From: a virus
IMG/VR virus record: IMGVR_UViG_3300030090_003321
Location: 1-32,853 of that record
Length of the DNA stretch: 32,853 nucleotides
Reading direction: 5' to 3' (one strand)
The notes below the pieces were generated by a model. The model was not told the origin of the DNA and made no database searches. It saw nothing but the letters and a program-made list of their open reading frames with translations. The first letter of the stretch is position 1. Every line of letters begins with the position of its first letter. Below, one piece after another: positions 1 through 32,814 of the stretch. The translations under genes were made by a program, and so were the position numbers.

Positions 1-474
1 GCTCCTCCCGACTTTACGGGTACCGTGAGCGAGTGGTACGAGACTTTGATGGAAACCATCAATGATGTCAGTGCTCGTATTCATCGTAAGACCCTCCGTG
101 GTGGCGCAAACTTTATTGTTTGTTCTCCCGAGGTCGCCAGCATTCTTGAGTTTACCGCTGGATTCCGTGCTTCGGTCGCTGTTGACGACGAAGGTGGATC
201 TTGGGGCGCTCAAAACGTTGGTTCGCTAAGCAAGAAGATGGACGTTTATGTCGATCCTTACTTCCCTCGTGGGTTGATTTTGGTCGGTCGTAAGGGTAAC
301 AGCTTCCTTGAAAGCGGCTATGTGTACGCACCTTATGTGCCACTGCAAGTCACGCCTACCATCTTTAATCCCGATACATTCGCACCTACCAAGGCTGTGA
401 TGACTCGGTATGCTAAGCAGATGGTACGCTCGGACATGTACGGTCTTGTTATCTGCCGTGATCTAGTCAACTAA
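1..474 (+). CDS. Major capsid protein, C-terminal part (T4 gp23-like), 5' truncated by window
   Basis: The frame is open from base 1, so the gene starts upstream and only the last 157 codons are present; the GTG at 25 is internal. The text matches the C-terminal half of gp23-type HK97-fold capsid proteins: a GGANFIVCSPEVASIL strand, then a segment on VYVDPYFPRG and GRKGNSFLESG, and the YAPYVPL motif typical of gp23, followed by a TRYAKQM stretch near the end. In T4 gp23 forms the hexamers of the head shell and is processed by the prohead protease; the N-terminal processing site is not in view. A strong terminator follows directly, so this gene ends its transcription unit. Its identity is well supported by these motifs and by the neck and tail genes downstream. 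Confidence 0.9.
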   Translation, partial: APPDFTGTVSEWYETLMETINDVSARIHRKTLRGGANFIVCSPEVASILEFTAGFRASVAVDDEGGSWGAQNVGSLSKKMDVYVDPYFPRGLILVGRKGNSFLESGYVYAPYVPLQVTPTIFNPDTFAPTKAVMTRYAKQMVRSDMYGLVICRDLVN

Positions 475-25147: not shown

Positions 25148-25381
25148 ATGGCTACTTTGAATTTTATTATGCCCGACAATTTGAAAGAGGGATTCTGCGA
25201 GAGAAAAGAAAAACAAAACAAAGTAAAACATAGCTGGGTCCCTACGGGGCAGACTAGAGCCATGTTTGGGGATCAGATTGCTATTGAGTGCTACTGCAAG
25301 CACTGCAACAAAAGAGAGTGGACCCAGACTTCTCGCTTTGAGTTTCAAATGTTACAAGACTTCTGGAAGGAATTAAGATGA
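25148..25381 (+). CDS. Small Cys-containing protein, unknown
   Basis: A 77-residue protein with AAAGGA upstream. The family is not recognised. It has four Cys: one in GFCERK and a cluster CYCKHC (three Cys near residues 48-53), a possible metal site, followed by NKREWTQTSRFEF. Compositionally it is basic and aromatic, without membrane segments. It overlaps the start of the GroES-like gene by ATGA, so the two are translated together, and it has its own promoter. Confidence 0.7.
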   Translation: MATLNFIMPDNLKEGFCERKEKQNKVKHSWVPTGQTRAMFGDQIAIECYCKHCNKREWTQTSRFEFQMLQDFWKELR

Positions 25382-25638
25382 AGCCATTTAATAAAAGAAT
25401 ACTTTTTAAAGATATTGAAAAAGACGAGCCAGAAAAGGGCAAGTTTTTATTGCCTGATGAATTGAAAAAGCCAGACCCTTATCGTTTAGTTGAGGTTATT
25501 AGTAGTGCATCAGACTGCTCCTCTAAACTTAAAAAAGGTGACAAAGTTATTATCTTATCCCACCTTGTTGAAGACGTGAAGGTTGAGGGTAATGAATATC
25601 AATTGGTCAGTGAAAATGCCATTGTGCTAACTGTTTGA
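25378..25638 (+). CDS. GroES-like co-chaperonin (T4 gp31 analogue)
   Basis: An 86-residue protein with the order of GroES (97 residues): a first strand RILFKDIE, a short acidic loop EKGKFLLPDEL that stands where the mobile loop with its hydrophobic tripeptide binds the chaperonin, then PYRLVEVISSAS, and LKKGDKVIILSH like the 'VGDIVIF' strand, ending in YQLVSENAIVLTV like 'VLIMSESDILAIV'. In T4 gp31 replaces host GroES so that GroEL can fold the large capsid protein gp23. Here it could serve the same need. The family match rests on ordered strand similarity and size; the mobile loop is shorter than in GroES. Confidence 0.75.
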   Translation: MKPFNKRILFKDIEKDEPEKGKFLLPDELKKPDPYRLVEVISSASDCSSKLKKGDKVIILSHLVEDVKVEGNEYQLVSENAIVLTV

Positions 25639-25669
25639 TACTTATTATAATAAAACAGGAGATTAGCAT

Positions 25670-26368
25670 ATGAAAAAGCTATTGAATGAGTGGAGAAAGT
25701 TTATCAATGAATCTGGTTTTAACCGGATCAAAAACATTCTTCAAGGCAAAGTGGCGTCCGTTAATACCGTTGGCTTCATGACTGCCGAGAATCCGATGGC
25801 TCAACAGCTTAGTCGCAAGGAAAACAAAGCATTAAATAAAGAGTTGATGGCTTTTATGCGTGAGCGTGGTTACGGACCAATCCGTATTCGTGGTAGGTTT
25901 GGTAATAAGGAACGATCCTTTATGATCCCTAATATAACTCGTGACGACATCGTGGAGGCAGGACAAAAGTTTGCACAAGAATCAGTTATCTTTGGCGAGA
26001 AGACTGGCGATAATGAGTTTGTCTTTCAGTACATCGAAGGGGATAAAACTATTCAGCGTAGAGACGTTGCTTTATTTGATGATGAGGTTCAGGCTCGTGA
26101 GGACTTTTTCTCGCAGGAGAGGCAGTCAGCAGGTAGAAAGTTTTATATTCCATTCTTTGATGATCAATATGACATGGATGAATCATATCAATATGAGTAC
26201 GACTTGCCTCAGCTAACTGAGCAACAAAGATTTGATAATCAAGATTTAATCAGTGAGATTAATGATAGAATTGAATACTCACTTGATCAAGGGACCACGC
26301 CAAAGCACAGATGGCATCACAGGCAAGTGCTTAAAGTTCGCCTTCGGGAACTAAAGAAGCGCCTATGA
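25670..26368 (+). CDS. Possible capsid-targeted protein with DUF3293-like core
   Basis: A 232-residue protein. The first 14 residues, MKKLLNEWRKFINE, are matched by the next gene (MKKLLEGFRGFLAE) and resemble the T4 capsid-targeting peptide MKTYQEFIAE, cut by the prohead protease after an (L/I)xxE site. The body has TAENPMAQQLSRKENKALNK, GYGPIRIRGRFG, ERSFMIPN and GQKFAQESVIFGE. This order (free N-rich helix, GY-x-x-x-x-G strand, S-F strand, FxQxSV strand) resembles DUF3293-type proteins, common in phages and of unknown function. If cleaved, it would be a protein packaged in the head. Strand and function are inference. Spacing and coupling to the next gene (ATGA) support co-production. Confidence 0.7.
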   Translation: MKKLLNEWRKFINESGFNRIKNILQGKVASVNTVGFMTAENPMAQQLSRKENKALNKELMAFMRERGYGPIRIRGRFGNKERSFMIPNITRDDIVEAGQKFAQESVIFGEKTGDNEFVFQYIEGDKTIQRRDVALFDDEVQAREDFFSQERQSAGRKFYIPFFDDQYDMDESYQYEYDLPQLTEQQRFDNQDLISEINDRIEYSLDQGTTPKHRWHHRQVLKVRLRELKKRL

Positions 26369-26844
26369 AAAAACTACTCGAAGGCTTCAGGGGTTTTCTT
26401 GCTGAAGAAAAAGTAAAGAAGGAGCGTTATGACCAAGGGGGCACCATGACTTTGTATCACTACGCTCAGTCTAGAGATGAGACACTTGTTCTAGATCCAA
26501 ACTTTAGAAGGGGCTCATACTCGACCAGAGAATATCAAAGGGCAACGACTCCAAGAGTATTTTTCTATGTAGACCCTGATCACCGAGAAAGTTTTTTTAT
26601 TAATAGAAAATTATATGAGGTTAACGTTCCGACAGATAAGGTGTATGATCTTAGTGCGGACCCGGAAGACATTATTGGTCAGGTAAGACATCCAGTCTAC
26701 GGTCTCCGAGATGGCGAAGAATGGAACACTTTGTTAGAAACCATTAGAGAGAAATATGACGGGGCTTATTACGATACTGGTCGTCTCCATATCGTAGTGT
26801 GGTTTAAGCCTATCGAAGTTCGGCAATCGGAAGAAGAAAGGTAG
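26365..26844 (+). CDS. Possible capsid-targeted, ADP-ribosyltransferase-like protein
   Basis: A 159-residue protein. Its leader MKKLLEGFRGFLAE is shared with the upstream gene and fits the T4-type capsid-targeting and prohead-protease pattern. The body runs LYHYAQSRDETLVLDPN (about 30-46), RVFFYVDPDHRES (64-76), KLYEVNVPTDKVYDLSAD (82-99) and YDGAYYDTGRLHIVVWFKP, an order like ADP-ribosyltransferase folds of the H-Y-[DE] type such as Arr (H-x-x-T near the start, a Y strand, a V-E-P strand). T4 Alt is a packaged ADP-ribosyltransferase, so the combination is meaningful. Key catalytic residues cannot be assigned with confidence. It overlaps the preceding stop by four bases. Confidence 0.6.
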   Translation: MKKLLEGFRGFLAEEKVKKERYDQGGTMTLYHYAQSRDETLVLDPNFRRGSYSTREYQRATTPRVFFYVDPDHRESFFINRKLYEVNVPTDKVYDLSADPEDIIGQVRHPVYGLRDGEEWNTLLETIREKYDGAYYDTGRLHIVVWFKPIEVRQSEEER

Positions 26845-31800: not shown

Positions 31801-32263
31801 ACACTACTGGTCCGCTGTAGCATTGATGCGTCCTAGGAAAGAAAAGAATCTGATTGAGAATATTGAGATGTATGCGCCGGAGGGTGACTTTACAGACGAA
31901 GAAAAGCTAGAGCACTTTGCGTCGCTCACTGGTATCTTCCCGTTACACGAGATCATGCCACAGCACATACAAAACAATTTGATGCAGCGTGGTTGTCCAC
32001 CCATTAGTGAATACGACCCTGACCTTGAGTTAGTTTGGTTTATCCCTCGTGAGGTTATTCGTAGGAAGACAAAGAATGGGAAAGATTATTGGATTATAAA
32101 CACGACTGACAGCAACGCTTTCAACGCCCAGATAAGATGTTGGGGAGTTAAAGATACAGATAGGATTTCACTTAACAAAGTGTATGTTGCTAAACTAGAA
32201 TACAATGACAAGTGGGGCTTTAGCACCAGAAGCATTGGACGACACTTTAGGAGATTGAGTTGA
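28838..32263 (+). CDS. dnaE: DNA polymerase III alpha subunit (family C, DnaE), complete
   Basis: A 1141-residue protein (E. coli alpha 1160). The N-terminal PHP domain keeps all metal ligands I can place: H15/H17 (LHAHS), D48/H49 (TDHG), E79 (GCEAYF), H129, C180 and D259/H261 (SDSHYP), so it may have 3'-5' proofreading activity. The polymerase core has GRGSAAGS (430-437), the two catalytic Asp in YPDIDFD (D470, D472) and the third in KFDLLGL (D635). The C-terminal part includes a helix-hairpin-helix (GIKGLGDSAI) and an OB-like fold (about 1065-1135). I found no clear clamp-binding motif. It is probably the phage replicase, alongside the family A enzyme. It starts one base after the dioxygenase stop. 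Confidence 0.95.
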   Translation: MTNRIESKIPFVGLHAHSGLSPFDGLGMPGEHMDFAYENGMNAHALTDHGHMNGLSFQVEHLKKMRADGKEFKALYGCEAYFIKSHRKWRKMYEEHRAKLKRQKKEEFGMVIEDENRGKRFNPLNIRRHLVMIAQNQTGLNNLFKLVSDSYQPENFYRYPRMDFEMLRKHNEGLIVSSACMSGPLFGDFWKHRDPETGDYDPDLVLAAMRNTIGEFQDIFGDRFYGEIQWNDIPEQHIVNALIIQACTEMGAEVISTSDSHYPRPELWKDREMYRRIGWAGKAPYEDQDAHRLPDSVEEVGYELYPRNGDQMWEAYKKYSSRTKIQYDDDFVLASIERTHHIAYDRVEDFLPDSTVRLPEFVVPEGKTAIQALTADALAGMKKKNITDPEYVDRLKYELNIINERGFAQYFLTMKAISDKAQEDMLVGLGRGSAAGSLLSYVLDITQVDPIKYGLQFERFLTKGGSGYPDIDFDVEEPMALKEQLAEEWGPTTVVPISNFNTLQLRSLIKDIGKFYGIPFAEVNKVTGVMMKEATPKAKAAKGQTAGVYTPTFDEVKEYSETLQAFFRNHPHIETHVDNLFGNMRSISRHAGGVVVAENLDRHMPLINSGGVIQTPWSEGQNVRHLEPLGFIKFDLLGLSTLRMISGAIRHILKRHHNIEEPTFEQVRDYYNTNLHPDTIDFDNQEVWREVFHKGKWAGIFQMTNGGAQKFCQQAQPTSLLDFAAVTAIFRPGPLSAKAHSLYVANKSNPSQVHYEHPIIKEILGDTYGLLVFQEQLAMLAHKLGDDLSLDEGNLLRKVLTKKGTGKDDIKTKLYNKFVKGCGKHGLSEEVAKNLWSKMEYFSGYGFNLSHAVSYGAVSFQCAWLSYYYPVEWMAAFLDKEPEDKKAGAINTAKSFGFDIVPPSINKSGRVWEIGDDGKTLIQPLAGIKGLGDSAIDQIVNNRPFTSIEEFLFNENITYSKLNKKALDVLVRSKALDELMDDRFTGMKHYWSAVALMRPRKEKNLIENIEMYAPEGDFTDEEKLEHFASLTGIFPLHEIMPQHIQNNLMQRGCPPISEYDPDLELVWFIPREVIRRKTKNGKDYWIINTTDSNAFNAQIRCWGVKDTDRISLNKVYVAKLEYNDKWGFSTRSIGRHFRRLS

Positions 32264-32814
32264 CAAAGTATCAGATCATATATGCCGATCCACCTTGGGA
32301 TTACAAAGGACAACTTCAGCACACCGGTAAGGGCGGACCAGATAGCGGGGGTGCTGTACGACATTATGGTTGTATGAAGCTGCCTGAACTTAAAAAGTTA
32401 GATGTTCCTAGTTTGTGTGATGAAGACTGTTTGCTTTTTATGTGGGCAACGAGCCCACACCTTGACCAAGCCATTGAACTACTCAAGGCTTGGGGATTCT
32501 CCTGGGCAACCGTAGGGTTTGTGTGGGATAAACAAAAGGTAAACCCTGGCTTCTACACAATGAGTCAGGTGGAACTCTGCTTAATTGGTAAGCGTGGTAA
32601 GATCCCCAAGCCAAGAGGAGCCCGCAACATCCGCCAACTGGTATCAGAGATGCGAGGAAAGCACAGCGCCAAGCCGGCGGAAGTAAGAAAGAGGATCGAA
32701 GAGATGTTCCCAGAGCAAAACAAGATCGAGTTGTTTGCCAGAGAAGCACCGGAGGGTTGGGACGTTCACGGTAACGAGGTTGAATCAGATATTATTTTGG
32801 AGGCTAGTCTGTGA
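32260..32814 (+). CDS. MT-A70-like adenine methyltransferase
   Basis: A 184-residue protein from TTG; AGGAG lies six bases upstream and the start overlaps the DnaE stop by four bases (TTGA). The MT-A70 catalytic motif DPPW is at residues 10-13 (IIYADPPWDY), followed by a HYGCM loop and MWATSPHLDQAIELLKAWGF, a segment where the fold binds S-adenosylmethionine; a C-terminal KIELFARE is also typical. It likely methylates adenine N6 in DNA (protection or regulation). The target sequence is not readable. There is no nearby restriction gene. Confidence 0.88.
   Translation: MTKYQIIYADPPWDYKGQLQHTGKGGPDSGGAVRHYGCMKLPELKKLDVPSLCDEDCLLFMWATSPHLDQAIELLKAWGFSWATVGFVWDKQKVNPGFYTMSQVELCLIGKRGKIPKPRGARNIRQLVSEMRGKHSAKPAEVRKRIEEMFPEQNKIELFAREAPEGWDVHGNEVESDIILEASL

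Follow-up and report, generated by a model that had tools for sequence, protein, structure and literature searches.

The 32,853-bp contig of an uncultured virus analyzed here (IMG/VR record IMGVR_UViG_3300030090_003321, called the window below) carries two consecutive genes, gene 1 and gene 2, whose products start with a shared 14-residue leader and continue into unrelated bodies. This observation was confirmed and reached well beyond the window: in related marine T4-like phages, leader carriers amounted to 155 proteins of 53 body families when IMG/VR and the gene calls of nine contigs were combined, some proteins being counted from both sources. It was concluded from sequence comparison, at a probability of roughly 0.8, that the leader is a capsid targeting sequence (CTS) of this marine T4-like lineage, borne by injected effectors, and that it is in kind a variant of the T4 CTS.

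Gene 1 (25670..26368, + strand, 232 amino acids) encodes the leader MKKLLNEWRKFINE (25670..25711, +) followed by an S-adenosylmethionine (SAM) lyase/DUF3293-like body. Gene 2 (26365..26844, +, 159 amino acids) encodes the leader MKKLLEGFRGFLAE (26365..26406, +) followed by an ADP-ribosyltransferase (ART)-like body. The stop codon of the first gene and the start codon of the second overlap in a 4-bp ATGA (26365..26368, +), and the spacing of the two starts, taken from coordinates, was unchanged across all relatives compared. A prohead-protease cut was predicted after Glu14 of both products, within MKKLLNEWRKFINE↓SGFNR (I-N-E↓S) in gene 1 and MKKLLEGFRGFLAE↓EKVKK (L-A-E↓E) in gene 2, where the arrow marks the cut. 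The two leaders were identical at 8 of 14 positions and ended in FINE and FLAE. Different codons were used for three of the seven identical residues other than Met, so the likeness was placed at the protein level, and the bodies were considered unrelated because their folds differ. The preliminary description of this DNA had reported overlapping consecutive genes with a common leader and unrelated remainders, which was borne out by the coordinates, the identity and the folds. When the genes of the window (n = 32) were searched for [WFY]xxF[LIVM]xE near the N-terminus, two matched, against 0.03 expected.

Longer related contigs were reached through relatives of gene 1; these are fragments, and their genes were called with a simple caller. 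The loose N-terminal regular expression (regex) gave 39 matches in nine contigs against a summed mean of ~1.5 in a null made by shuffling residues 2-22 of every gene, and its rate within proteins gave a similar background. Seven carriers were recorded in G002, a contig of 190 kb, and five each in G007 and G008. A strict DNA pattern (MKK-hyd-hyd-x-E-W-K/R-x-F-hyd-x-E, hyd being hydrophobic) was run on IMG/VR and found 77 stretches, which yielded 116 distinct bodies in 45 families. All body families were blastp clusters, the number of which would drop somewhat if remote homology were merged. The consensus of this leader, termed class A, was MKK-L/I-L-x-E-W-R/K-x-F-L/I-x-E. An all-against-all comparison of N-termini that used no regex returned the leader as a top cluster in three contigs (G009, G011 and G016); in four contigs it gave 16-43 similar pairs of unrelated proteins, counts that take in both leader classes described here, against 0-1 in null windows. 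The scan of related phages that had been suggested earlier was thus positive, with the leader standing on many unrelated proteins. A tblastn search of the cultured phage collection with a 20-residue leader query gave one meaningless match (E=9), a near-identity search of the phage collection with the right half of the window found none, and the leader strings were absent from the literature searched.

A conservation profile was built from one protein of each of 28 families, aligned on the Glu. Every leader column was above background information content, and background was reached from the second residue past the Glu, the first being weakly biased (E, G, S, Q). The regex had itself contributed to the W, F, L and E columns, the E being required by it; it had no part in the MKK-LL segment, the charged positions or the sharp end. 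Trp was found in 27 of the 28 families where W, F or Y was permitted. Different codons were used in 166 of 394 comparisons of identical leader residues, so selection acts on the leader peptide. These counts bear on the proposal that the shared 5' ends carry no protein signal and arose through recombination at the starts of genes or through mRNA-level selection at the translation start. Such an origin was judged hardly credible: four leaders of one contig (G013) are near-identical in DNA, with 16 of 72 codons differing, as would follow if a 5' module had been copied recently, whereas elsewhere about half of the codons for identical residues differ (33/57 in G007, 29/53 in G002), ~50 families retain the peptide, and conservation falls where it would be expected in a signal for targeting and cleavage.

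The loose regex was also applied to the 247 called genes of T4, where it matched exactly two, both starting with MKTYQEFIAE, the leader of IPII and IPIII. At identical spacing, W8, F11, L/I12 and E14 of the leader correspond to Y4, F7, I8 and E10 of the T4 CTS. IPII and IPIII have identical propeptides, the packaging of IPIII requires no more than its first ten residues, of which 4 and 7 affect targeting and 8 and 10 processing, and the T4 protease cuts after L/I-X-E (PMC9026906). A change at position 10 of IPIII is reported to leave the protein packaged but uncut. The resemblance of the leaders to MKTYQEFIAE, claimed in the preliminary description, was therefore upheld by the aromatic-x-x-F-(L/I)-x-E spacing and by the T4 regex result. 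Its cleavage motif, (L/I)xxE, was wrong, but the FINE and FLAE sites that it named do fit: as the T4 motif is L/I-X-E, the sites in the window are I-N-E and L-A-E, in exact agreement.

An S77 prohead protease was found in ten related contigs (G002, G003, G004, G007, G009-G013 and G016), that of G002 having 198 residues, and a gp23-type capsid was present in the related contigs covering that region. In the capsid alignment, FLTE↓A of T4 gp23 (residues 62-65) stood opposite LLRE↓T, LLKE↓Q, LLKE↓A, LLKE↓S and others, so the protease consensus that had been proposed for comparison at the capsid N-terminus was recovered, in relatives of the window, as LL(K/R)E at the T4 gp23 cut. LLTE occurred near the N-terminus of the prohead protease in most lineages. 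Class-A-like N-termini were also recorded on head-cluster genes of three contigs (G009:148102, G012:170992 and G011:3999).

A different role was considered, in which the leader is an uncleaved amphipathic helix unrelated to the head, by which early proteins are held at the host membrane or on a single phage or host protein that they have in common, such as a replisome or RNA polymerase hub. The helix itself is compatible with this role, with hydrophobic positions 4, 5, 8, 11 and 12 and a helical stretch 2-13 in low-confidence models, and most carriers are encoded away from head genes. Anchoring was nevertheless regarded as unlikely, since conservation ends exactly at the Glu in an L/I-x-E context, nothing besides the MKTYQEFIAE genes was matched in T4, L-x-E recurs at the aligned site of the capsid propeptide, and leader-like N-termini occur within the head gene cluster as well.

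The idea that the leader is a copy of the LLxKW stretch of the capsid propeptide was rejected after a scan with a position-specific scoring matrix. In eight of nine contigs the top-scoring capsid window fell on the cleavage site, with ranks of 13-52 among some 15,000-55,000 windows; G009 was the one contig in which it fell on the LLSKW stretch. The scan weakly supports a cleavage site shared by the leader and the capsid and, in these nine contigs, gave no support for a docking motif common to both.

Sequence searches of the PDB with gene 1 and gene 2 profiles found no relative, so folds were compared for both proteins. The gene 1 model, with a mean predicted local distance difference test (pLDDT) score of only 67, matched the T3 SAM lyase (Z 8.7, 119 residues, root-mean-square deviation 3.4), SAMH in complex with MAT (Z 8.4) and Svi3-3 (Z 6.3). 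The top four structure-match rows and the top three Foldseek hits were SAM lyases, and no row besides those of the matches just named exceeded Z 5.5. The active site of Svi3-3 consists of Gly56, Glu69 and Gln104, with Tyr58, Ser71, Glu105 and Ser106 (PMC7877911). By motif order, the putative active-site residues of gene 1 are G75, E81-x-S83 and Q103-E104-S105, with E81 encoded at 25910-25912 (+) and the QES codons (Q103, E104, S105) at 25976-25984 (+); the G, E, S and Q of these motifs were invariant in 18 homologues. In Pfam, DUF3293 was above the cut-off for gene 1, and the SAM lyase family PF23780 matched 16 of the 18 homologues (best E 4e-16). Because of the fold, the active-site residues and these Pfam matches in the homologues, the body of gene 1 was assigned as a probable SAM lyase, the predicted mature protein of which spans 25712..26365 (+) according to the alignment, the fold match and the residues in PMC7877911. 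No relatives were found in bacterial genomes searched with the gene 1 (A2) profile, and DUF3293 was not mentioned in the literature searched. In Flavobacterium phage elemo, DUF3293 lies inside a 3694-residue protein that is annotated as structural and has no other Pfam domain (NC_055854.1, 48851-59935); virion evidence behind this label could not be traced.

The gene 2 model (pLDDT 78) gave leading rows that were nearly all ARTs, with ParT at Z 7.1, MbcT at 6.4 and AcrIF11 at 6.3; structure 6kyf is the ART AcrIF11. H32, Y33, R64 and Y68 were invariant among 8 homologues. The body of gene 2 is, judging from the fold matches, a probable ART, and the predicted mature protein with the ART-like fold occupies 26407..26841 (+) by fold search and homologue alignment. 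The gene 2 homologue of the cultured Microcystis phage Mel-JY01 has another short N-terminus, MSLINVIIE↓A, which likewise ends in an I-x-E site. That homologue adjoins an annotated SAM synthetase (PP395634.1, 78787-80464), and in G002 the gene pair is followed by a gene that, read by eye, is SAM-synthetase-like (G002:48432-50605); the window has no SAM synthetase gene beside the ART-like gene.

Pfam matches of other leader-carrying bodies, several of them below curated cut-offs, included GNAT acetyltransferases (three families), ART-PolyVal (two, weak), a tRNA-ligase-type cyclic phosphodiesterase, a transglutaminase-like fold and ParB-like, kinase-like, NUDIX and WYL domains. Most of the bodies had no Pfam family. 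A 1102-residue protein of G016 with a class A leader (L217:7094-10399) matched the WYL domain weakly and has a further leader-like stretch, VVKQFKKWKKFVKE, at residue 767.

The nature of these bodies was weighed against the reading that the leader loads the prohead mainly for core building, as proposed for T4 IPIII, with cargoes that are not injected effectors. Leader-like N-termini on a few head-operon proteins agree with it, as do the head assembly defects of T4 IPIII mutants (PMC9026906). However, the bodies are enzymes that could act on the host (SAM lyase, ART, GNAT, kinase-like, cyclic phosphodiesterase and NUDIX), and they vary between related phages in a manner typical of an arms-race repertoire and not of structural parts. 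A mainly structural function was therefore rated as quite improbable.

For the leader as a CTS on injected effectors, we infer docking, cleavage, packaging, injection and enzymatic activity, every step beyond the sequence evidence being drawn from T4. As the prohead is assembled, the leader, an amphipathic N-terminal helix of 14 residues (MKKLLxEWRxFLxE), would dock the carrier onto the scaffold core. The S77 prohead protease would then cut the leader off behind its last residue, Glu (L/I-x-E), leaving a mature body that would be retained in the head and enter the host with the DNA. The gene 1 cargo might lower host SAM at entry, which would counter SAM-dependent restriction or BREX or else reprogram metabolism, and the gene 2 cargo might act as an ART comparable in role to T4 Alt, an ART packaged in the head.

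Several points weigh against this proposal. The leader has little sequence identity to the T4 CTS. The window begins within a capsid gene (C-terminal part of a gp23-like major capsid protein, 1..474, +; phrog_138, E=5e-31), so its own capsid N-terminal propeptide and prohead protease both lie outside it. No virion proteomics was found for any leader-carrying phage, and no cultured leader carrier was found in the phage collection. As to the cargoes, gene 1 itself reached only 20.1 bits with SAM lyase PF23780 (cut-off 28, E=6e-4) and has Phe77 where Svi3-3 may have Tyr58; in this subfamily the equivalent of Tyr58 is Phe or is ambiguous. The ART match of gene 2 is moderate (best Z 7.1, all rows below Z 8), and no Pfam ART match was obtained for any of 8 homologues.

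A second class of leader, class B, is represented by MKITKSQLRKIIKEE. Similar starts were found on 2-7 proteins in most related contigs, against ~0.05 expected, and a similar N-terminus stood on a small head-cluster gene beside the protease in four contigs (G002:16814, G009:150350, G012:169546 and G016:44579). The DUF3293/SAM-lyase-like genes of G012 and G010 start with MNKENLKQMIKQVILES and MKLNKQTLKNMIQEVIEEG, class-B-like N-termini that replace class A; that of G012 stands behind ribonucleotide reductase (RNR) and GroES-like genes, as in the window. These N-termini suggest that class B is a second targeting signal, which was taken as a lead and not as a result. Within these phages, dozens of mutually unrelated proteins begin with a MKITKSQLRKIIKEE-like N-terminus; the genes noted for this class include L018:16814 and L040:15150 (G007:53150). 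The class A regex was not enriched in the cultured Flavobacterium phage immuto (one match, null 0.19). Short N-termini of another kind, ending in [LI]-x-E, occur in this phage (NC_055915.1), with MENFDLKKFLVEN for example borne by several genes, and a similar site, GLLTE, stands at the start of its prohead protease. It was tentatively proposed, at somewhat less than even odds, that marine T4-like phages possess a large and fast-changing set of head-packaged effectors, a virion-delivered SAM lyase among them, that can be read from genomes through two interchangeable leaders.

The window also contains a tail sheath gene and, further along, an RNR-like gene (read by eye), which is followed by a GroES-like gene and then by the leader pair. 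The GroES-like co-chaperonin gene (25378-25638) lies immediately 5' of the pair; a gene with a GroES-similar start likewise precedes the DUF3293 gene in G012. A Shine-Dalgarno-like AGGAGA (25657..25662, +; AGGAG at 25657-25661) was read in the sequence 7 nt 5' of the gene 1 ATG. An open reading frame at 32260-32814 showed, by eye, likeness to MT-A70-type methyltransferases, with a DPPW motif.

As judged from the literature searched, what is new is the leader consensus, how widely it is used and the probable SAM-lyase cargo. If the proposal is true, the injected proteins of a widespread uncultured marine phage group could be listed from sequence alone, giving dozens of candidate anti-defence and take-over enzymes, most of them without a family, and the leader would be a ready-made tag to load cargo into these phage heads. 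It would also suggest a SAM lyase that arrives with the DNA and is active before any phage gene expression.

Compared with known systems, the leader is closest in organization to the CTS of T4 IPI, IPII and IPIII, which is likewise a short N-terminal leader on otherwise unrelated proteins that ends at an L/I-X-E site, and relatives of the leader phage have a T4-type S77 protease and a gp23-type capsid. It differs in its length (14 residues against 10), in Trp in place of Tyr, in the MKK-LL start and in the number of body families (more than 50 in the leader lineage against three IPs in T4), and it is known from sequence alone. Head proteins of the giant phages SPN3US and phiKZ are also cut after Glu by a prohead protease, but their propeptides are mostly of 111-254 residues (two are of 20 and 24), unlike the fixed 14-residue leader. 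Phage polyvalent proteins form an effector repertoire delivered with the DNA that includes ART-PolyVal domains (Iyer et al. 2017, PMC5512222). The leader-carrying bodies are of the kind described for that repertoire, whereas the carriers are separate, mostly small proteins, each with its own leader, and not one giant polypeptide. Like T4 Alt, gene 2 would place a probable ART behind a short cleavable-looking leader; its body is small (145 residues), its nearest folds are ParT, MbcT and AcrIF11, and no Alt was among the listed structure matches. Gene 1 shares with the T3 SAMase and Svi3-3 (PF23780) the fold and the G, E-x-S and Q-E-S active-site residues. The first protein to be expressed in a T3 infection is the SAMase (PMC8406200), whereas the gene 1 product, which has extra C-terminal helices, would come pre-made in the virion behind its leader.
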